Origin: Nitratiruptor sp. SB155-2
Lineage (GTDB): Bacteria; Campylobacterota; Campylobacteria; Campylobacterales; Nitratiruptoraceae
Assembly: GCF_000010325.1 (NCBI RefSeq)
Contig: NC_009662.1
Span: forward strand, 1,570,501 to 1,634,500
Direction: 5' to 3'
DNA: 64,000 bases
In this document: positions 33,303 to 61,905 of the stretch, one piece after another
Position numbering within the stretch: the first letter of the stretch is position 1
How the letters are laid out: each line of letters opens with the position of its first letter
Notes under the pieces: generated by a model
What the model saw: the letters and a program-made list of their open reading frames with translations, nothing else
Databases searched by the model: none
Told to the model about the DNA's origin: nothing
Program-made: the position numbers and the translations under genes

Positions 33303-33410
33303 ACATTGCTCCGTTTTATCTTTGTTATAATTATACAAAACTTAAGAGAGATTAAACTTGCGACAAGATAGTATCAAAAATCTTCAAGAATTGAAACAAA
33401 AAGAGCTACT

Positions 33411-34019
33411 ATGTTCACAGGCCTCATTCGAGAAATAGCAACCGTCTCACAATTTGACGGCAAACATCTGAGACTCAAAGCAAAATATAGACCTAAGATC
33501 GGTGATTCCATTGCCGTCAACGGTGCATGTTTGAGTGTAACGAAGCTCTACCGTGACGGCTTCGAAGTGGAACTCAGCGATGAAACAAGAAACGTTATCG
33601 CTTTGGAAAACTACAAAGAGCGCGTCCATATCGAACCGGCGATGCGTTTAAGCGACAGGTTGGAGGGACATATTGTCCAGGGACATATCGACACTCTCGG
33701 CACAATTATCTCTATTAAACCTGGAACCAACTCCACCGATTTTTTGATCAAAATTCCAAGAGAGTACATCAAGTTTGTCATCCCTAAAGGAAGTATTACT
33801 GTTGATGGCGTGAGCCTCACAGTCAACGAAGTCCACGAGGACTCCTTCAGGCTCACCATCATACCCATCACCCTCAAAGAGACACTCTTTGGCACCTATA
33901 CTGTGGGACGCAGAGTCAATATCGAAACAGATATGTTTGCAAGATATCTTTTCCATCTTTTTAATAAAAAAACTTCTCTCAATTGGGAATTGATCGAAAG
34001 ATTCCAAGCCCTATTCTAA
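33411..34019 (+). CDS. ribE: Riboflavin synthase, alpha chain
   Basis: 202 residues with two homologous lumazine-binding barrels. The start MFTGLIREIA is the canonical riboflavin synthase N-terminus, repeated motifs include GDSIAVNGACLSVT and GSITVDGVSLTVNEV, and the C-terminal helix supports trimerisation. It dismutates two 6,7-dimethyl-8-ribityllumazine molecules. The 108-base divergent gap from mnmG holds no recognisable FMN riboswitch. Confidence 0.96.
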   Translation: MFTGLIREIATVSQFDGKHLRLKAKYRPKIGDSIAVNGACLSVTKLYRDGFEVELSDETRNVIALENYKERVHIEPAMRLSDRLEGHIVQGHIDTLGTIISIKPGTNSTDFLIKIPREYIKFVIPKGSITVDGVSLTVNEVHEDSFRLTIIPITLKETLFGTYTVGRRVNIETDMFARYLFHLFNKKTSLNWELIERFQALF

Positions 34020-34038
34020 CAAAAAGAAAAAATTCCTC

Positions 34039-34125
34039 CTATTTTTTATTTATTGCATAAATGCTATTTATTTTTGAGTATTTATAGAAATATTTTCGTA
34101 TTTGTTTAAACATGCTTTTTAACAT
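34039..34125 (-). CDS. 28-residue basic micro-ORF downstream of the DUF2325 gene
   Basis: Starts at ATG 34123-34125 with AAAGGAG six bases upstream and ends at TAG. The 28 residues are rich in Lys and Tyr (MLKSMFKQIRKYFYKYSKIN and eight more). It lies 71 bases after the Fur-box-preceded DUF2325 gene, on the same strand, so it may belong to that transcript. The good ribosome site is the main support; coding is not certain because the region is very AT-rich. Confidence 0.4.
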   Translation of the reverse strand: MLKSMFKQIRKYFYKYSKINSIYAINKK

Positions 34126-34196
34126 TCACTCTCCTTTGTAAGTAATAAATTCTTCTATTTGTGCATATTTTTGAAATAAGAACAAAAATCATCATT

Positions 34197-34478
34197 TTAC
34201 ATTCTCATTACCGTTTGTATTTTCTTGATCAACTCATTTTTATTGTATTTTGAATAAACAGTAAGGATATTTCTCTTTTTTGCCTCTTTTTTAAAACTTT
34301 CCATTTTACTATGAGCCAGATATTCTGTAATAAAAATCACCATATCTATATCAGATGGTATTTTTTTGTGAAAATTTTTCTTTCTACAATCGAAATGTAC
34401 TACTTTTGTTGCTCCCATTTCATAAAGAGTCGATTTTATATGCTTAATTTTATCTGCACCTATCAGTAAAACTCCCAC
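34197..34478 (-). CDS. DUF2325 family protein
   Basis: 93-residue protein opening with GVLLIGADKIKHIKSTLYEMGA and containing HFDCRKKNFHKKIPSDIDMVIFITEYLAHSKMESFKK in pieces typical of DUF2325, a small Rossmann-like domain of unknown biochemical role. Start is GTG at 34476-34478, supported by AAAGGAG six bases upstream. A Fur-like box at 34495-34513 lies immediately before the ribosome site, so iron repression is likely. One cysteine and several histidines could bind metal, but this is speculation. Confidence 0.75.
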   Translation of the reverse strand: MGVLLIGADKIKHIKSTLYEMGATKVVHFDCRKKNFHKKIPSDIDMVIFITEYLAHSKMESFKKEAKKRNILTVYSKYNKNELIKKIQTVMRM

Positions 34479-34494
34479 AATACACTCCTTTAAA

Positions 34495-34513
34495 GATAAT
34501 GAATATCGTTCTC
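34495..34513. promoter_or_regulatory. Fur box upstream of the DUF2325 gene
   Basis: GATAATGAATATCGTTCTC matches the classical 19-base Fur consensus at 15 of 19 positions. It lies 17 bases before the DUF2325 start and overlaps where its promoter or leader must be. Confidence 0.65.
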
Positions 34514-34552
34514 AGTAATTATAAAGAAACTTTCTTGTTTGCGTCTTAAATT

Positions 34553-34571
34553 GATAACGATAATCAATTTA
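34553..34571. promoter_or_regulatory. Fur box in the divergent promoter region of the uptake operon
   Basis: GATAACGATAATCAATTTA matches the 19-base Fur consensus at 15 of 19 positions and is flanked by a near-palindrome (ATTGATAACGATAATCAAT). A weaker third match (12 of 19) starts at 34605. Together they suggest iron-responsive control of the plus-strand operon starting at 34644. Confidence 0.65.
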
Positions 34572-34643
34572 ATAAACGATTAAGTTGGGCTGTAATATTA
34601 TTTTGATAATTATTTTCATATTTCAAATTTCGAAGGAGATGAG

Positions 34644-34736
34644 ATGACTGTAGGGAAAACAGATAAAAAAGCAAAAAAAATTCTTTTAGAAGCTTTGGCT
34701 ATTTATATAATAAAAGCAAAAAATGGAGGCAACTAA
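34644..34736 (+). CDS. 30-residue micro-ORF opening the Fur-controlled operon
   Basis: ATG at 34644 preceded by AAGGAGATGAG. It encodes 30 residues, lysine-rich at the start (MTVGKTDKKAKK), then ILLEALAIYIIKAKNGGN, an amphipathic or short hydrophobic helix. Its stop overlaps the start of the outer-membrane gene as TAATG, and an additional GGAGG inside its last codons serves that next gene. The coupling supports real translation. It could be a leader peptide that controls the next gene or a small membrane-associated protein. Confidence 0.55.
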   Translation: MTVGKTDKKAKKILLEALAIYIIKAKNGGN

Positions 34737-35688
34737 TGAATATAAGATTACTTACCATAATTCCTTTTATCTGTTCTTTTACTCTTTTTGCACAAGTCAT
34801 CCCCGGTATCAACTCAAAAGACGGTGCTATGGTAGTACCAGAAGGCAAACTGAAAATGGCTATGAAACATATCTACTTTCAGCGAAAACATATGTTTGAT
34901 GGCACACATGAAGTTACAAAATAAAGAAAACTTAGATGCTACAGCAAATATGACACTTTTGGTATTTCGTCATGGAATCATCAAAAATGGTGATATCCGT
35001 TTCGTGTTCCCCTATAAACAGGTTAAAGCAACTGCACAACTTGGAACCAATGATGTAGCAATTGACAATAGCGGAGTTAGCGATATAGCAATCATTGGAA
35101 AATATGTTTTGATGCCAATGAGACAATATGGCTATCAAGTAGCTATTGAAGCTGGAGTGAAACTGCCTACAGGTAAAACAGACAAAGGGTTTAAAAAGGC
35201 TCCTCCTTTTGCACAAAATATTGCTACACCATTGCCAACACAGCCTGGAACCGGTGGAGCTGAATATAAATTAGTATTAGGTTTTTCAAAAATGTTTGAA
35301 CCTACCTGGAGAGTAGATGCCCATACTATGTATACTTATCGTCCAAAAGCAAAACATGACTATGACTTTGGGAATGAAATTACATTTGATATAGGAACAA
35401 CAAAAGCAATAACAAAAAATTTTAATATAGGGATTGAATACAATTTCAAGTATAATTCTAAAACGAATATGGGAAGTGACACCAATCCAATGCTTCGCTC
35501 AAAACTCCCTTTTAAAGCCTTTAGCGGAAGCGCTGGATATATTACCCCTCAAATTGAATTTTTGCCATTTAATAAACCAAAACTGCATATAGGAGTGGGG
35601 GGTGAGTTTCTTAGCACACTACAATCTCAAAGAATATCAACCTCTTGAAAAGAGACGAGTTGTATTTCGTATTGGATATCTATTTTGA
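34736..35688 (+). pseudogene. Outer-membrane beta-barrel transporter-family gene with two frameshifts
   Basis: Three reading frames together make one protein of about 315 residues. Frame one gives a signal peptide and the family start (IPGINSKDGAMVVPEGKLKM) up to 34924. The second continues from NKENLDATANMTLLVFRHG to about 35600. The third gives AHYNLKEYQPLEKRRVVFRI ending in GYLF with the terminal Phe typical of outer-membrane barrels. Removing one A from the run at about 34917-34921 and one G from the six-G run at 35597-35602 restores a single frame. The protein resembles the phenol-meta-pathway-type porin family. It may be a sequencing error, a pseudogene or phase-variable. Confidence 0.8.
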
Positions 35689-35699
35689 AAGGAAGAAAA

Positions 35700-36671
35700 A
35701 TGTTGAAAAAGATTGTTTTATTTCTTGCAACTTTATTAATTGTAAGTGCCAATGATGCCAAACTGGATAAAATCGTCATAGCAGGACCTGCAGCTAATGT
35801 TTCGCATCCTATTTTTCGTATGATTGAAAGCGGTGCTTTGAAAAAGTATGCAAAAATGATTGAGTTTCGTCTTTGGAAAAACCCGGATCAGTTAAGGGCA
35901 ATGATTATCAATAAAGAGGTTGATTTTGTTGCGGTGCCAACAAATGTGGCATCCATTTTATATAACAAAAATCAGCCAATTAAACTGCTCAATGTTTCAA
36001 TTTGGGGGATTTTGCATATTTTAGTCCGGGATAAAAATATAAACACTCTTGAAAAACTAAAGGGAAAATCGCTTCTTGTACCCTGGCGAGGTGATATGCC
36101 AGATATTGTTTTAAGAGCCATTATGAAGCAAAAAAAATTAAGCAATAAAGATATCCATCTCATTTACGTTTCCAATCCGATGGATGCAGCAAGTCAGCTT
36201 ATTATGCGCCGCCAAGACAATGCCCTCTTGCCAGAGCCGGCAGCATCGATGGTGCTAAGAAAAACCCACTCTTTTCCAGTTAGCATCATTGCGCCAGAGC
36301 TTTATCGAGGAATAGATTTACAAAAAGAGTGGGCAAAGGCTTTTAAAACAGAAGCTAAAATTCCACAAGCTGGAATAGCAGTCATTGGAGAGATGAGAGA
36401 AAACAAAGAAGTCATTAAAGCTTTTGAAAAAGCGTATGAAAAAGCTATGCAGTGGTATAAAAGCCATCCAAAAGAAGCAGGAAAATTGGTTGTAAAATAT
36501 GTAAAGATGTTTACGCCTGAAGCTGTGGCGGACTCCATTAGCCATGTAAAAATGCAAGTAGTTCCGGCAAAAGAAGCAAAAAAAGATATTGAATTTTTCT
36601 TTGAGAAACTCAAAGAGCAAAGTCCAAAGATTATTGGCGGGAAACTTCCTGATGAGGAGTTTTACTACTGA
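35700..36671 (+). CDS. ABC transporter substrate-binding protein (NitT/TauT/NMT1-like)
   Basis: 323 residues from ATG 35700 after AAAGGAAG; an in-frame TTG five codons upstream is less likely. Signal peptide MLKKIVLFLATLLIVSA. The body has the two-lobed periplasmic-binding layout of the NMT1/THI5/TauA class (DKIVIAGPAANVSHPIFRMI; VDFVAVPTNVASILYNKN; LPEPAASMVLRK). That class binds nitrate, sulfonates, thiamine precursors or similar small ligands, so the ligand here cannot be read from the family. Fur boxes upstream suggest an iron-linked cargo. Confidence 0.85.
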   Translation: MLKKIVLFLATLLIVSANDAKLDKIVIAGPAANVSHPIFRMIESGALKKYAKMIEFRLWKNPDQLRAMIINKEVDFVAVPTNVASILYNKNQPIKLLNVSIWGILHILVRDKNINTLEKLKGKSLLVPWRGDMPDIVLRAIMKQKKLSNKDIHLIYVSNPMDAASQLIMRRQDNALLPEPAASMVLRKTHSFPVSIIAPELYRGIDLQKEWAKAFKTEAKIPQAGIAVIGEMRENKEVIKAFEKAYEKAMQWYKSHPKEAGKLVVKYVKMFTPEAVADSISHVKMQVVPAKEAKKDIEFFFEKLKEQSPKIIGGKLPDEEFYY

Positions 36672-37453
36672 TGGACGCACTTAAAAAAATCATCAAAGAT
36701 TTTCCCAAATTCCTATGGGGCGGCTGGGGCTCCATAGCTGCGATTTTTCTTTTTATCGCTGCTTGGGATGTGGGCAATCAGATCTATGGAGATATGATCT
36801 TGCCCTCCCCTTTGCAAAGCTTTCAAACTGTATTGGAGCTTTTTAAGGACAAAGAGTTTTTAGACAATCTCTCTATTACCATCGATAGAGTCATTGTCGG
36901 ATTTGGACTTTCGCTTACTATTGGAACGATCCTTGGCTTGATAGCCGGTTTTTTTATCACTGCCTCAGTTGCAAGCCGACCAATTATTACAATCTTAATG
37001 GGAATGCCACCGATTGCCTGGATCGTTTTGGCAATGATCTGGTTTGGCATGGGTGATATGACGGTAGAGTTTACCGTATTTGTAGCATCAATGCCGATAG
37101 TATTTATTGGAGCCTTGCAAGGAACCAGGACATTAGAGGATAAATTTGAAGAGATGGCAGATACTTTTAAAGTGCCAAAACTGATGAAATTTACCGATAT
37201 CTATCTTCCTCATATCTTCTCATATATTTTTCCCTCTTGGGTAAGCGCCCTTGGAATGGCTTGGAAGATTGTTGTGATGGCTGAGCTTTTGGCTACAAGT
37301 GACGGAATTGGCGCAGCTTTGGCGATGGCTAGAAGTCAGCTTGATACAAAAACAGCTCTTGCACTTGTTGTCATTATGATTGCTCTTTTGATGATTGTGG
37401 AGTATATCTTTTTGGAACCTATTAAAAAAGAAGTAGAAAAATGGCGAGATTAA
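36671..37453 (+). CDS. ABC transporter permease (TauC/SsuC-like)
   Basis: 260-residue inner-membrane permease with six predicted helices. It carries the characteristic DMILPSPLQSFQTVLELF near the N-terminus and an EAA-type coupling loop around GTRTLEDKFEEMADTFKVPK followed by YLPHIFSYIFPSW. Its ATG overlaps the stop of the binding-protein gene by 1 base, and its end overlaps the ATPase gene by 13 bases. The NitT/TauT permease family is clear; the substrate is not. Confidence 0.9.
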   Translation: MDALKKIIKDFPKFLWGGWGSIAAIFLFIAAWDVGNQIYGDMILPSPLQSFQTVLELFKDKEFLDNLSITIDRVIVGFGLSLTIGTILGLIAGFFITASVASRPIITILMGMPPIAWIVLAMIWFGMGDMTVEFTVFVASMPIVFIGALQGTRTLEDKFEEMADTFKVPKLMKFTDIYLPHIFSYIFPSWVSALGMAWKIVVMAELLATSDGIGAALAMARSQLDTKTALALVVIMIALLMIVEYIFLEPIKKEVEKWRD

Positions 37454-38172
37454 AGGTAGAGCATCTGACATTTTCTTTTGGGTATAAAACAATTCTTGAG
37501 GATATCAGTTTTGAGATACATGAAGGAGAGGTAGTTTCAGTTGTAGGTCCTAGTGGCGGAGGAAAAACAACGCTTCTTAGACTATGTGCGGGTCTTTTGG
37601 ATAGACAAGAAGGAACCATTGAAAATAGCTTCAAAACCCAGGCAATCGCCTTTCAAGATCCAAGACTGCTTCCATGGAAAAATGTGCTTGACAATATCGC
37701 TTTCGGTCTGAAGGCTCAAGGAGTGCCTAAAAAAGAGCGTATAAAAAGAGCAAAAGAGATTGCTTTGAAGTTTGATTTGGAAGAGGATGATTTTGAAAAG
37801 TTTCCAAAAGAGCTTAGTGGCGGAATGAGTCAAAGAGTCTCCTTTGCCAGAGCCCTTGTAACAAAGCCCAAGCTTCTCTTTTTAGATGAGCCCTTTTCTG
37901 CTTTGGATATTGGTCTCAAAAGGGAGCTGCAAAATCATTTGATTGAACTCATTACAAAAAAAGCAATTACGATTTTTTTCATAACCCATGACTTAATGGA
38001 AGCAGTGAGACTGAGCGACAAGATTTTTGTGCTCGAACCAGATCCTGGCAGAATCGTAAAGACCTTTACACTCGATATTCCACAAAACAAAAGAGATGAT
38101 ATGTATGTGTATAGCAAAACTGCAAAACTGCTAAAAGATCCTTATATTATTGAAACATTTGAGCTGGAGTAA
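37441..38172 (+). CDS. ABC transporter ATP-binding protein (TauB/SsuB-like)
   Basis: 243 residues. Walker A GPSGGGKTT, Q-loop region AIAFQDPRLLPWKNV typical of the nitrate/sulfonate group, signature LSGGMSQRVSFARAL, Walker B LLFLDEPFSALD and the switch histidine in FFITHDLMEAV are all intact. It forms the motor of the preceding permease. Confidence 0.93.
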   Translation: MARLKVEHLTFSFGYKTILEDISFEIHEGEVVSVVGPSGGGKTTLLRLCAGLLDRQEGTIENSFKTQAIAFQDPRLLPWKNVLDNIAFGLKAQGVPKKERIKRAKEIALKFDLEEDDFEKFPKELSGGMSQRVSFARALVTKPKLLFLDEPFSALDIGLKRELQNHLIELITKKAITIFFITHDLMEAVRLSDKIFVLEPDPGRIVKTFTLDIPQNKRDDMYVYSKTAKLLKDPYIIETFELE

Positions 38173-38174
38173 AT

Positions 38175-39404
38175 ATGGCAGCAACGAAACATTACGAATC
38201 ATATCCCAAAGGGAATATCCCCATATATCTTGCCTATGGATTTCGCCCGGCGTTTTTACTGATGCCTCCTTATATGATTCTTTCCATCATTCTTTGGGTA
38301 CTTTACTACAACGGCTACATTGCTTTGCCATTTATTGCAGATGGCATGAGTTGGCATGTGTATGAGATGCTTTTTGGGGTTGGATTTTTAGGAATGACTG
38401 CCTTTATTCTCACAGGAGCTCCCGAGCTTTTTCCAGGAACCGTTCCGATCGTTGGCAAAAAACTGGCCGCTCTTTTTGGGCTTTGGATTGTAGGAAGAGT
38501 TACATTTTGGCTAATGGGAGTTATTGGAGTCTATCCGGCAGCGATTGTCAATATCATTCTTTTTGCATGGCTTACGATATTGGTAGCAAAACCGATCTTC
38601 AAAGACCCAGCAAAACGCCATGTCAGTATCGCTTACACTTTCATAGCTGTGCAGATTATGCAAATCTGGTTTTTTTTAAGTGTTGCTGGAGTTGTTGAAA
38701 CAGATCCATTAGATATTTTAAAGCTCTGTCTTGGAGTTTTTTTGGTTCTTATCATTCTTGCGCTTCGCAGAGTCAACACAGAAGCTGTTAATGAGATTTT
38801 AGAACATGAAGGGTATGAAGAGATCTTTTTTGCACGGCCTCCAGCATACAATCTGACGATTTTTATGATAGCTCTTTTTAGCGCACTTGAGTTTTTCTTC
38901 CCACAAAACAGAGCCTTAGGCTGGGTTGCTTTAGGCACAGCCAGTGCCGCTTTGGCGATTTTAAATGATTTTATCAACTATGAAGAGACAAACATTCTTT
39001 TTAAAAAACTCATTTTCTCATTGGAGCTTATTCCAATTCTCATAGCAATTGGCTATGGACTTATTGGCTATAACTATTTAAGCGGAATGAAGCTATTTAA
39101 CGGAGATTTACTTCATATGCTCACAACTGGTGCTTGGACACTTTCGTTTTATGTGGTTATGATTGTCGTTACGATTGTCCATACCGGAAGAGACATTGCA
39201 AAAGCAAGAGATTTTCTTATCTGTTTAGGTACTCTATCGATAGTAATTGCAGCAATCTTTAGAAGTGCTGTTGCTTTTTATCCTGAGAATGCACAACTAC
39301 TTTATTTTGTCTCTACTCTTTTTTGGATAGCTCCCTTTATTTTATATATAGTGCGATACAATAAATGGTTATTGAGCCCAAGAGCTGATGGACTTCCTGG
39401 ATAA
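38175..39404 (+). CDS. nnrS: NnrS family heme-copper membrane protein
   Basis: 409 residues, about 12 hydrophobic segments, two bases after the ATPase gene. The N-terminal YLAYGFRPAFLLMPPYMIL and the HVYEMLFGVGFLGMTAFILTGAPE segment are characteristic of NnrS, described as a heme- and copper-containing protein linked to nitric oxide tolerance. Conserved histidines (for example in WHVYEM and in TIVHTG) are candidate heme ligands. Placement as last gene of a Fur-box operon with an uptake transporter is unusual for NnrS. Confidence 0.9.
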   Translation: MAATKHYESYPKGNIPIYLAYGFRPAFLLMPPYMILSIILWVLYYNGYIALPFIADGMSWHVYEMLFGVGFLGMTAFILTGAPELFPGTVPIVGKKLAALFGLWIVGRVTFWLMGVIGVYPAAIVNIILFAWLTILVAKPIFKDPAKRHVSIAYTFIAVQIMQIWFFLSVAGVVETDPLDILKLCLGVFLVLIILALRRVNTEAVNEILEHEGYEEIFFARPPAYNLTIFMIALFSALEFFFPQNRALGWVALGTASAALAILNDFINYEETNILFKKLIFSLELIPILIAIGYGLIGYNYLSGMKLFNGDLLHMLTTGAWTLSFYVVMIVVTIVHTGRDIAKARDFLICLGTLSIVIAAIFRSAVAFYPENAQLLYFVSTLFWIAPFILYIVRYNKWLLSPRADGLPG

Positions 39405-39413
39405 GGAAATAGT

Positions 39414-39908
39414 ATGAGACTTTTTTTAGGCTCTTTTGCGACGATCAACTATTATGGACTCATCAAGGAAAAATTCTCATTTGTAGAAGGCAAATGGGTT
39501 GAGAAGCATAATATCCATCTTACCTATCTTTTTTTGGGAGATATACCTACACCACAACCTATCATAGAGAAACTTGAAGGCATTGCCAAACCTGAAAAAA
39601 AGATAGGTATGAATCATCTTGGCTTTTTCGGTCATCCTCCAAAAATTCTTTTTGCCAAAACGATGGAAAAATCTTTGTTTGAGCTCCATCAAGAAATCAT
39701 TTCCAGGCTCGGTATAAAACCCAAAAAGCCTTTTATACCACATGTCACTTTATGCAGAATCAAAAAAGTACATAACTTTGATAAATTTCTTCAAAACATT
39801 CGCCAAATGGAGGGCAATCATCTAGGATCAATTGAGCCAAAACTCCATCTTATTCGTAGTCATTTAACCCCAAAAGGCCCGATTTACAAAATCATTCACA
39901 CTTTTTAG
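39414..39908 (+). CDS. thpR: RNA 2',3'-cyclic phosphodiesterase (2H family, ThpR-like)
   Basis: 164 residues. The two HxTx active-site motifs are visible as HLTY (35-38) and HVTL (110-113). Sequence around RLFLGSFATIN and FLGDIPTPQPI agrees with ThpR/LigT enzymes that open 2',3'-cyclic phosphates on RNA ends. It starts 9 bases after nnrS and may be on the same transcript, although its function is not obviously related. It ends convergent with the cupin gene, overlapping by 17 bases. Confidence 0.88.
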   Translation: MRLFLGSFATINYYGLIKEKFSFVEGKWVEKHNIHLTYLFLGDIPTPQPIIEKLEGIAKPEKKIGMNHLGFFGHPPKILFAKTMEKSLFELHQEIISRLGIKPKKPFIPHVTLCRIKKVHNFDKFLQNIRQMEGNHLGSIEPKLHLIRSHLTPKGPIYKIIHTF

Positions 39909-40200
39909 GATCATAATGCACGGCAAGCCACAACGCTCCTTTACTCACACTTGTTAATGTATGAGGAGTATTTGCCGGGATCACAAGGGTATCCCCTGCC
40001 TTTAAACAAAACACCTCCTCTCGCATACGCAAGGTGGCCTCACCTTGTAAAAGAACAACCCATTCATCTCTTTCATCACAAAACTTTTTCTCTTCTTTCA
40101 AAGAGGCACTGACAATGCGAACGATCTCCAAAGATCCCCGTTTATAGAGAGTCGTAAATGTTTCATCTTCCTTGGGAAGCTCGTATTCAAACAGATTCAC
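39892..40200 (-). CDS. Small cupin-domain protein
   Basis: 102 residues, a single conserved beta-barrel. The cupin motifs are visible as EWVVLLQGEATLRM followed by GDTLVIPANTPHTLT; one histidine at the second motif and HYDP near the C-terminus may bind metal. Family members vary widely, so no reaction can be named. It overlaps the AMMECR1 gene by 4 bases, suggesting they are made together. Confidence 0.8.
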   Translation of the reverse strand: MNLFEYELPKEDETFTTLYKRGSLEIVRIVSASLKEEKKFCDERDEWVVLLQGEATLRMREEVFCLKAGDTLVIPANTPHTLTSVSKGALWLAVHYDPKKCE

Positions 40201-40781
40201 CCTTGAAAATCCTCTTCACTAAACTTTTCTACCTGATAGACAAAAATTTCAGGATGATAAGCAAGGCAATTTGCAGGCAATCCCGCTTTCATACAAAGAT
40301 GGGCAAAAAACTGATCAAAATCATTCAGCTCCTCCCATACCTGAGGTAAAAAAGTAGCTTGTCTGCCGTCCAGTTTTAGTACAACTCCATCGATGCCCGG
40401 CCTGATTTTTGCCCGTAAATCCTCAATATCACGATATTCCAGAGGTTTTGGTTCACTCAGTAGCGAGATTTCGATAGTGATTTTATCAAACTCTTCCGGG
40501 CTCAAAGGGGGAAATCTCGGATCACCAAACGCTGCAGCTTTTGCATTTTCGATCAAATCATCGATGAGTGGCCTATGAGCTACAAGAGATCCTATACAGC
40601 CTCTCAGTGAGCTTCGCTCATTTATCGTTACAAAAACGGCTCCCGGTTTGGCAAGCTCTGGATGCATTGCAATGAGTCTTTGTTTGACATCGTCGTTTAA
40701 CTCTTTATGGCCCATAAACTCCTCTTTAATCGCAATGCGTGCGATATTGAGCATAATACGTTTTAACTGATCACTGATCAT
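40197..40781 (-). CDS. AMMECR1 domain protein (AmmeMemoRadiSam system protein A)
   Basis: 194 residues. The family motif LRGCIGSLVAHRPLIDDL is complete, together with AAFGDPRFPPLSPEEFDKITIEISLLS, which defines AMMECR1. In many bacteria the protein is encoded with a Memo and a radical-SAM partner; neither lies in this window. Its molecular role is not settled. It overlaps both neighbours. Confidence 0.93.
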   Translation of the reverse strand: MISDQLKRIMLNIARIAIKEEFMGHKELNDDVKQRLIAMHPELAKPGAVFVTINERSSLRGCIGSLVAHRPLIDDLIENAKAAAFGDPRFPPLSPEEFDKITIEISLLSEPKPLEYRDIEDLRAKIRPGIDGVVLKLDGRQATFLPQVWEELNDFDQFFAHLCMKAGLPANCLAYHPEIFVYQVEKFSEEDFQG

Positions 40782-59853: not shown

Positions 59854-61905
59854 TCAAAAAGTGTAGCGTAGATTTGTATAGAGATATCGTCCGGGCTCAT
59901 GAATAAGCAGTGGTACGGCTCCAGAAACAAGTGCTCGTCCTACGTAGGTATTGTTCACGGCATAATCTTGATCAAAAAGGTTGTCGACTCCTACATCAAT
60001 AGAAAATTGCGAAGAGATCTTCTTGGAAGCCTTTAGGTTCACAACCGTCCAACTTTTAATAGCCTGTTCGCCGTTGTCACTATCATAATTGTTCCATTTC
60101 GCACTGTATCGAATCTCAGCTGATGCAAAATAGTCCCCAGTATCGTAAGAATAGCTTACACTTGCATGAAATGGCGGGACCATCGCCATATCATCATCAC
60201 TTTGTCCTGCTATTTGATCATCCTTTTCACCTCGTTGATAGGCCATTTTAGCTTCAAGGAGTCCATACTCCCCAACGCTATATGCTGAATCGAAAGCCGC
60301 TCCGTAGATATGGGCATCGATATTTGTGTAGGTAAGCGTACCGGCACTATCTTTATATGCATAGATATAGTCTTTGAGATCGCTGTAAAAAAGAGTTACT
60401 CTGTAGTTGCCAACCTCTCCTAGACTTCCCTCATATCCAAAGTCGACTTCTCTGTTTTTTACCTCTTTGAGATCTGGATTACCTCTACGGACCCAAGGAT
60501 TTGTCAAATTTTTGTTATACGCTATGAAATAGAGTTCATTCGCATCCGGTACTCTTATACCTTGACCGATAGCAAAAAAGAGTGCATCTGTATCATTGAA
60601 ATGGTATTTTGCAACGACATTTGCACTAATATCATTAAAGTCTCTTGAAGTCTTGTTGCTGTAGTAATTTACCACAGGTGCAGGAATCAAAGGATTGTTG
60701 TTCCACTGGACATTAGTATCTATGTTGGTCCAGTCATACCGAATGCCAGCTTTCAGATCCCAAGAACCATATTTTCTAGTCCCTTTGATAAAAACTCCTC
60801 GGTTGATCGTATCGACATCAGGAATACGCACCTGTCTTGGTGTTTTGGAAGGTTCATTCAGGCACACTCCATTCCACCCTCTCTTGCTCACATCGATTCC
60901 TGTTTCCATATTCCAAGCACCAATCAAAAATATATTTTTAAGCTTGACGCCTTTCGTCTCGCTTTTGGCTCTATGGGTTCGATACAGCATTCCAGGTGCA
61001 TTTCTAAACTCTGTACCCATATCGTGTTTGACCCGATCATAGTAGGCGCTCAGTACCAGTTTATCCGAATAGGTAGAAAGATGTTTGATGGTATAGTCGG
61101 CATTGAGCATGATCGTCTCATCCAGCTGCGCATCCATTTGAAATGCAGGATAGAGAACATCGTTCGCTTTATCGCTGTAAAGTCTCACTTTTAACTGTTG
61201 ATTTTCATCGATGTCATAAATGAACTTTCCTCGAACTACACCTCGTTTATACGCATCCATATTCTTATATTGCTCTTTATAAGCATTTGGATTAGTCTTT
61301 CCAAGGACTGCCCAGTTTTGCTCTACAAGCGTTCTTCCAGATCCATCTTCATACTGCCCACTCGATTCTCTCACAAAACCAAGGGAAAATTTGAACTTTT
61401 CATCGCCACCGTTAAAGTTGACCGCTCCTTTTTTATAATCAAAGCTCCCGATCGTAGCCTGAATGGATCCAGAAAATCCCGGTTTTGGATCTTTTGTGAC
61501 AACATTGATCATTCCACCCATACTACCAAAATTCTCTACGTCAAACGGGCCCTCTTTGACTATCACCTTCTCAATTTGTGAAATGGAGATATGCATTGCG
61601 GGTGGATCCATTCTGTTTGGACATGCACCGTATATCTTTGCCCCGTCGATCAAAACATTTATGTCATCTCTTTTAAACCCTCGTAGCACGATATCATTGC
61701 CAATGGCACTAGCACGAACCATGTTGATTTCAGGATTGGTAGAGCTTAATATTTCGCTTAAGTCCTGCTGTCTTGTAAATTGTACCTGATCAGAGCTCAG
61801 TTTCTCCGTTTCGATACTCGATTCAACAGTAACCGTCTGGACCTGAAGCGCCTCGGCAAATAAAAGGGTAGCCAATGAAAAACACAGAACAATAGGCTTT
61901 GTCAT
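59854..61905 (-). CDS. TonB-dependent outer-membrane receptor, OprC/NosA-like (putative copper)
   Basis: 683 residues with signal peptide MTKPIVLCFSLATLLFA. The plug domain is at about 35-145 (IVLRGFKRDDINVLIDGAKI), then a 22-strand barrel ending in YTNLRYTF with terminal Phe. The plug contains ACPNRMDPP, giving a CxxxM motif at C95 and M99, and the barrel has HDM at 294-296. OprC of Pseudomonas binds copper with exactly CxxxM and HxM. Copper as cargo is therefore a good inference and fits the adjacent cbb3 oxidase genes, which need copper. Confidence 0.88.
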   Translation of the reverse strand: MTKPIVLCFSLATLLFAEALQVQTVTVESSIETEKLSSDQVQFTRQQDLSEILSSTNPEINMVRASAIGNDIVLRGFKRDDINVLIDGAKIYGACPNRMDPPAMHISISQIEKVIVKEGPFDVENFGSMGGMINVVTKDPKPGFSGSIQATIGSFDYKKGAVNFNGGDEKFKFSLGFVRESSGQYEDGSGRTLVEQNWAVLGKTNPNAYKEQYKNMDAYKRGVVRGKFIYDIDENQQLKVRLYSDKANDVLYPAFQMDAQLDETIMLNADYTIKHLSTYSDKLVLSAYYDRVKHDMGTEFRNAPGMLYRTHRAKSETKGVKLKNIFLIGAWNMETGIDVSKRGWNGVCLNEPSKTPRQVRIPDVDTINRGVFIKGTRKYGSWDLKAGIRYDWTNIDTNVQWNNNPLIPAPVVNYYSNKTSRDFNDISANVVAKYHFNDTDALFFAIGQGIRVPDANELYFIAYNKNLTNPWVRRGNPDLKEVKNREVDFGYEGSLGEVGNYRVTLFYSDLKDYIYAYKDSAGTLTYTNIDAHIYGAAFDSAYSVGEYGLLEAKMAYQRGEKDDQIAGQSDDDMAMVPPFHASVSYSYDTGDYFASAEIRYSAKWNNYDSDNGEQAIKSWTVVNLKASKKISSQFSIDVGVDNLFDQDYAVNNTYVGRALVSGAVPLLIHEPGRYLYTNLRYTF

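Follow-up and report, generated by a model that had tools for sequence, protein, structure and literature searches.

A conserved operon pairing an NMT1-type ABC importer with NnrS behind Fur boxes in Nitratiruptor, and its possible place between iron supply and nitric oxide

We have analyzed a 64,000-nucleotide stretch (the window) of contig NC_009662.1 of Nitratiruptor sp. SB155-2, from position 1,570,501 to 1,634,500, in a complete genome of 1,877,931 bases. At 34039–39404 of the window lies a divergent locus in which an operon behind Fur boxes encodes an NMT1-type periplasmic substrate-binding protein (SBP), an ABC permease, an ABC ATPase and NnrS. This unit recurs in many bacteria that handle nitrate or nitric oxide (NO), usually with an outer-membrane receptor, and it therefore has the look of a so far undescribed uptake system that ties iron supply to NO. 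We suggest, with middling confidence, that it serves under iron starvation: it would import an organic metal chelate or a chelate-like cofactor, most probably as a source of iron, and be coupled to NnrS. An iron-chelate importer with an NO guard is favored because iron genes surround the unit and because NnrS is reported to relieve, in Vibrio cholerae, the stress that iron-NO complexes cause (PMC10256816). In the open-licence literature, papers treating NnrS together with TonB and Fur, or together with an ABC transporter and limitation of iron, yielded no description of this operon, and titles and abstracts on iron or TonB in Nitratiruptor included no work on this locus.

The plus-strand operon begins with a 30-codon open reading frame, micro-ORF A (34644..34736, MTVGKTDKKAKKILLEALAIYIIKAKNGGN; ribosome site AAGGAG), whose stop overlaps the ATG of an outer-membrane barrel gene as TAATG. 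The barrel gene, of PF13557/COG4313 type (34736..35688; 47.4 bits against a PF13557 cut-off of 22), is followed by the NMT1/SsuA-type SBP (PF09084; 35700..36671), the permease (PF00528; 36671..37453), the ATPase (PF00005; 37441..38172) and NnrS (PF05940; 38175..39404; 263.1 bits against a cut-off of 28). The minus strand carries a DUF2325 protein of 93 residues (PF10087; 34197..34478; E 3e-12, 46.8 bits against a cut-off of 33.6) and, 3′ of it, the 28-codon micro-ORF B (34039..34125, MLKSMFKQIRKYFYKYSKINSIYAINKK; ribosome site AGGAGAG). An Rfam scan of 33400–40300 matched no RNA family. An earlier note, made from the letters alone, had described this layout. Its DUF2325, SBP, permease, ATPase and NnrS assignments are confirmed by Pfam, and its two short reading frames are both present and conserved in relatives; the barrel it reported has the family match, but the gene is not intact.

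The loci compared here were found by SBP similarity and read by hand; their counts show that this SBP is followed by NnrS and give no frequency for NnrS away from it. The SBP was found in 16 of 100 related genomes. A scan of named genomes gave eight further loci, one in Burkholderiales, and plasmid records add Arcobacter, Agrobacterium, Shinella, Azospirillum, Paracoccus, Cereibacter, Martelella, Bartonella, Diaphorobacter and others, with named relatives on Nitratiruptor plasmids as well (strains YY08-14 and YY08-10). The genes for SBP, permease, ATPase and NnrS stand together in 32 of the 36 hand-read loci, which span Campylobacterota, Alphaproteobacteria, one Burkholderiales and Neisseria and are often plasmid-borne; the exceptions to the NnrS pairing are L032, L039, a Diaphorobacter plasmid and a Pseudomonas nitroreducens plasmid. 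The earlier note had made lack of conservation in relatives a ground for abandoning its interpretation, and the synteny search found the set conserved. Orphan SBP copies lacking ABC or NnrS genes lie at L032 7281–8264, near two-component regulator genes, and at L039 834–1961. Plasmid-borne importer-NnrS sets include L028/L063 (G001:C2, 27 kb) and L031/L075 (G037:C2, 49.8 kb).

In sister genomes the surroundings of the unit are rich in iron genes. In G005, a genome of the same genus, the orthologous site lies between RibE and LigT. The interval opens with DUF2325 and micro-ORF B, Fur boxes, micro-ORF A, an ankyrin-repeat protein, flavodoxin and FeoB, continues with an FTR1-like protein, cytochromes, an imelysin-like protein and ferritin, and closes with a DUF2325-ExbD-ExbB-TonB group divergent from Fur-family regulator-TonB receptor-SBP-permease-ATPase-NnrS, before LigT. 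By sequence comparison, the window locus is a shortened version of this site: the part to the left, as far as the boxes, gives an 87.5% alignment with G005, and the part to the right carries barrel, ABC genes and NnrS, then LigT and a cupin as in G005. A search of the window's genome with the G005 flavodoxin gave no match, an empty result that is weak proof. In G001 the set sits on the 27 kb plasmid with FTR1, imelysin and ferritin, in L034 it adjoins FeoB-like and FeoA-like genes (read from sequence), and in Agrobacterium it stands beside nap genes. G005 resembles TonB siderophore and heme operons in having a TonB receptor, TonB-ExbB-ExbD, an ABC importer and Fur boxes, whereas the unit differs from them in its SBP and permease, which are NMT1-type and not of the usual siderophore ABC type, and in including NnrS.

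Two Fur boxes occupy the region between the divergent transcripts. Box 1 (GATAATGAATATCGTTCTC, 34495..34513) matches the consensus at 15/19 positions as read and at 16/19 in the opposite orientation; box 2 (GATAACGATAATCAATTTA, 34553..34571) matches at 15/19 and has an aligned counterpart at the equivalent place in G005. A possible third, overlapping site (34599..34623) is closest to the plus-strand start and weaker, at 14/19, while its counterpart in G005 scores 16/19. At least two matches of at least 15/19 within 165 bases arose in 4 of 20,000 simulations with the composition of that stretch (P 2e-4). A scan of the whole genome gave no more than three sites with three mismatches or fewer (box 1 of this promoter, one site inside a gene body and one promoter near 474 kb), and a reversed control had none. 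Both boxes of the earlier note are real and beyond chance, with box 1 upgraded. A Fur protein with a strong match is encoded in the same genome (PF01475, 146.8 bits, C1:1094905–1095264), and we infer that both divergent transcripts would be under Fur control and iron-responsive. A promoter survey took in the intergenic region 5′ of the operon in 29 cases, picked by eye, so that its P values serve as a guide. Fur-like sites of 14–16/19 (own-composition P≤0.04) precede the importer-NnrS unit in 15 of 17 Campylobacterota promoters, and further ones stand 5′ of the unit on both Arcobacter plasmids (2/2) and in Neisseria.

All three ABC parts belong to the families of NitT/TauT (NMT1/SsuA) importers according to Pfam, and the locus could on that account be an ordinary nitrate, sulfonate or thiamine-precursor transporter lying by chance beside NnrS and Fur boxes. 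We consider this very unlikely, as every substrate-specific model is missed by a wide margin (SsuA, 44.5 bits against a cut-off of 163.5; NtrB, 68.7 against 209; the taurine ATPase model TauB, 194.8 against 357), as NnrS and usually a TonB receptor are kept across Campylobacterota and Proteobacteria, and as Fur boxes are so regular in Campylobacterota. The permease likewise stays under the cut-off of the NCBIfam model SaoP (122.6 against 295 bits). Unlike the NitT/TauT importers, the unit is joined to NnrS, a TonB receptor or barrel, and Fur boxes.

The SBP itself offers some indication of its cargo. Its structural model, with a predicted local distance difference test (pLDDT) score of 84.8, has as its closest solved folds 3hn0, whose ligand is unassigned, and then PqqT with pyrroloquinoline quinone (PQQ), to which it aligns in fold at ∼17% identity. 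In a set of 22 diverse SBPs, the invariant residues are S35, W59, P62, D63, R66, P80, N98 and G103, and further D132, A163, E179, P180, W211, A224, G313 and P317. As none of these is His, Cys or Met, an organic ligand or chelate is favored over a naked metal, which makes an organic chelate or cofactor the probable cargo. PqqT, the closest ligand-known fold, is a periplasmic binding protein, and PQQ enters E. coli via a TonB receptor (PMC12124388). PqqU shows TonB import of an organic cofactor, but a link of the PqqT/PqqU system to NnrS was not found.

NnrS is a heme-copper membrane protein. Its residues H61, H314 and H336 are invariant in 22/22 proteins and are candidate heme or copper ligands; a solved-structure search with NnrS gave no match. 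The window protein shares family and conserved histidines with the NnrS of the NsrR, DNR, NnrR and NorR regulons (PMC1274295), but its gene here closes an importer operon that lies behind Fur boxes, and the text of that regulon survey makes no mention of TonB or an ABC transporter. In the system that we propose, cargo would enter through an outer-membrane protein, a TonB receptor in most lineages and often a COG4313-type barrel in relatives of Nitratiruptor and Sulfurovum, and would then be taken up by the NMT1-type SBP, the permease and the ATPase. Fur would repress both divergent transcripts when iron is plentiful, and iron starvation would release them. NnrS might keep the NO made by these nitrate reducers from locking up iron, whether just arriving or newly freed, in iron-nitrosyl complexes. 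The DUF2325 protein and both small basic peptides would be accessory products released along with the rest.

The outer-membrane partner of the unit varies. From sequence comparison, it is usually a TonB-dependent receptor, and often a PF13557 barrel in Nitratiruptor and Sulfurovum relatives. A TonB receptor gene is present in the operon in L029, L020, L033, L034, L038, L076, L077, L080 and others; the window operon has none and carries the barrel in its place, as do seven other Campylobacterota loci. Two single-base frameshifts split the barrel of the window into 34736–34924, 34896–35648 and a tail in the third frame that runs to 35688, as seen in DNA alignment with G003 and G001, where the gene is a single open frame. 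Both frameshifts fall at short homopolymer runs, and they could reflect a pseudogene or a sequencing error in the deposited genome. A β-barrel model of the L019 homologue is of low confidence (54). Elsewhere in the window, at 59854–61905 on the minus strand, an intact TonB-dependent receptor gene is followed on the same strand by a PAS-type histidine kinase and a response regulator.

Several observations weigh against the proposed importer. As the barrel gene is broken here, the importer may be dead in the window strain, or may be fed by one of five TonB receptors encoded elsewhere in its genome. Outer-membrane partners differ in type between loci (heme-like, siderophore-like, copper-like and non-TonB), which makes a single cargo for all loci uncertain. 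Finally, no Fur box was found 5′ of the unit in any of seven alphaproteobacterial examples. Many alphaproteobacteria use other iron regulators, which softens this absence. The earlier note had proposed an undescribed iron-starvation uptake or iron/NO-linked system; that proposal is partly supported by the conserved set, the Fur boxes of most Campylobacterota and the iron-gene neighbors in same-genus genomes (FeoB, FTR1, ferritin, flavodoxin, TonB-ExbBD). The outer-membrane gene of this strain is frameshifted and may not work.

Loss of the locus in this strain, with a working set retained in relatives, is quite unlikely. Besides the two barrel frameshifts, such decay would fit a second Fur-box promoter of the same genome, at ∼473.8–474.0 kb (L043 1100–1700), which has a full micro-ORF A (MTVGTKSRYAKKILTDAIIIAIQAKGLKSSYKK) and from which the importer operon is missing; a radical SAM gene precedes it and a transposase gene follows it, and G003 carries the whole operon at the matching place. 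This promoter, at ∼473.9 kb, has lost its operon beside the transposase gene. Set against this, the SBP, permease, ATPase and NnrS genes of the window are open frames, 88–98% identical to genus copies, and two single-base differences in a deposited genome could be sequencing errors.

The Campylobacterota loci L040 and L041 have a copper-receptor-like partner in which no plug domain was recognised; it is related to TIGR01778, the family of TonB copper receptors (176 and 159 bits, E 1e-51 and 2e-46), and Neisseria has a relative of it; pseudoazurin adjoins the unit in Martelella, and NnrS has been listed as a cuproprotein (PMC6769254). A copper complex feeding denitrification cuproenzymes and heme-copper NnrS is nevertheless an unlikely cargo: the TIGR01778 scores are far under the family cut-off of 472, heme or siderophore families are a better fit for the other outer-membrane partners, the unit is surrounded by Fur boxes and iron genes in Campylobacterota, and none of the invariant SBP residues is His, Cys or Met. 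Heme or another tetrapyrrole is to our minds unlikely as well. The receptors of G005, L034, L038 and Arcobacter have heme/hemoglobin receptor models as their best or nearly best match, HutW/HutX or HutX is nearby in Cereibacter and one Arcobacter and a ChaN lipoprotein in another, and NnrS itself carries heme; yet every receptor score is under its family cut-off, known heme importers use other ABC types, and heme genes are near only a few copies.

The control of the unit appears to change between lineages. An FNR/NnrR-type palindrome stands where the Fur box would be in Agrobacterium and Shinella, and the Shinella site (TTGCGCCAGCGCAA) fits the NnrR consensus (PMC1274295). Fur-like and FNR-like sites occur together in four Campylobacterota promoters and on one Arcobacter plasmid. 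More tentatively, NnrS could be the working partner of an unnamed family of TonB-fed NMT1-type importers for a metal-organic cofactor that is needed at low iron or with NO, the switches being Fur- or NO-responsive by lineage. NnrS occurs widely, its molecular function is unsettled, and the operon offers a direct way to test whether it acts where iron supply meets NO. The locus also draws attention to an unassigned importer family and, in the iron-starvation operons of vent bacteria, to a pair of conserved micro-proteins.

The pattern of conservation indicates that the two micro-ORFs are real. Micro-ORF A (MTVG...AKKIL..A) has M1, T2, V3, G4, A10, I13, L14, A17 and A25 invariant in five aligned copies. 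Among 399 genomes of the order its profile matched six; the importer operon is present in five of these, and the sixth match is weak. Micro-ORF A is preceded by Fur-like sites in every relative read, and in G005 and on the G001 plasmid it heads a flavodoxin operon and not the importer operon. Micro-ORF B (..SK[IV].SIY.I..) has a 28-codon copy at the orthologous site of G005, where, of 29 codons including the stop, 24 are identical, 3 synonymous and 2 changed; relatives are also found in G001 and as the first ORF of the TonB-ExbB-ExbD-DUF2325 operon in G005. A Pfam search matched neither peptide. Both resemble FbpA, FbpB and FbpC of Bacillus subtilis (29–54 residues) in being very short basic peptides behind Fur sites (PMC8464778), but with no shown sequence relationship; by analogy only, they may act as these Fur-controlled proteins are thought to.

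In two same-genus genomes, at L028 10356–10736 on the minus strand and L029 3559–3987, the first gene of the operon encodes a Fur-family regulator of 126–142 residues, in the position held by micro-ORF A in the window. The idea that micro-ORF A is a cut-down N-terminus of such a regulator, suggested by similar position and faint likeness, has no support.

The DUF2325 protein is 94.6% identical at the orthologous site in G005. A solved-structure search with it returned odd matches to adiponectin-labelled entries (best E 2e-6), which are uninformative. The DUF2325 protein Cj1384 of Campylobacter jejuni is clustered with katA and an ankyrin-repeat heme-trafficking protein, is PerR-regulated and is very strongly induced by light stress (PMC9426514). 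DUF2325 again lies beside an ankyrin-repeat protein and a protein of 83–99 residues at L062 6273–7920 and L022 4640–5834, a DUF2325 and ankyrin pairing also seen in Cj1384-katA-Cj1386 of C. jejuni.

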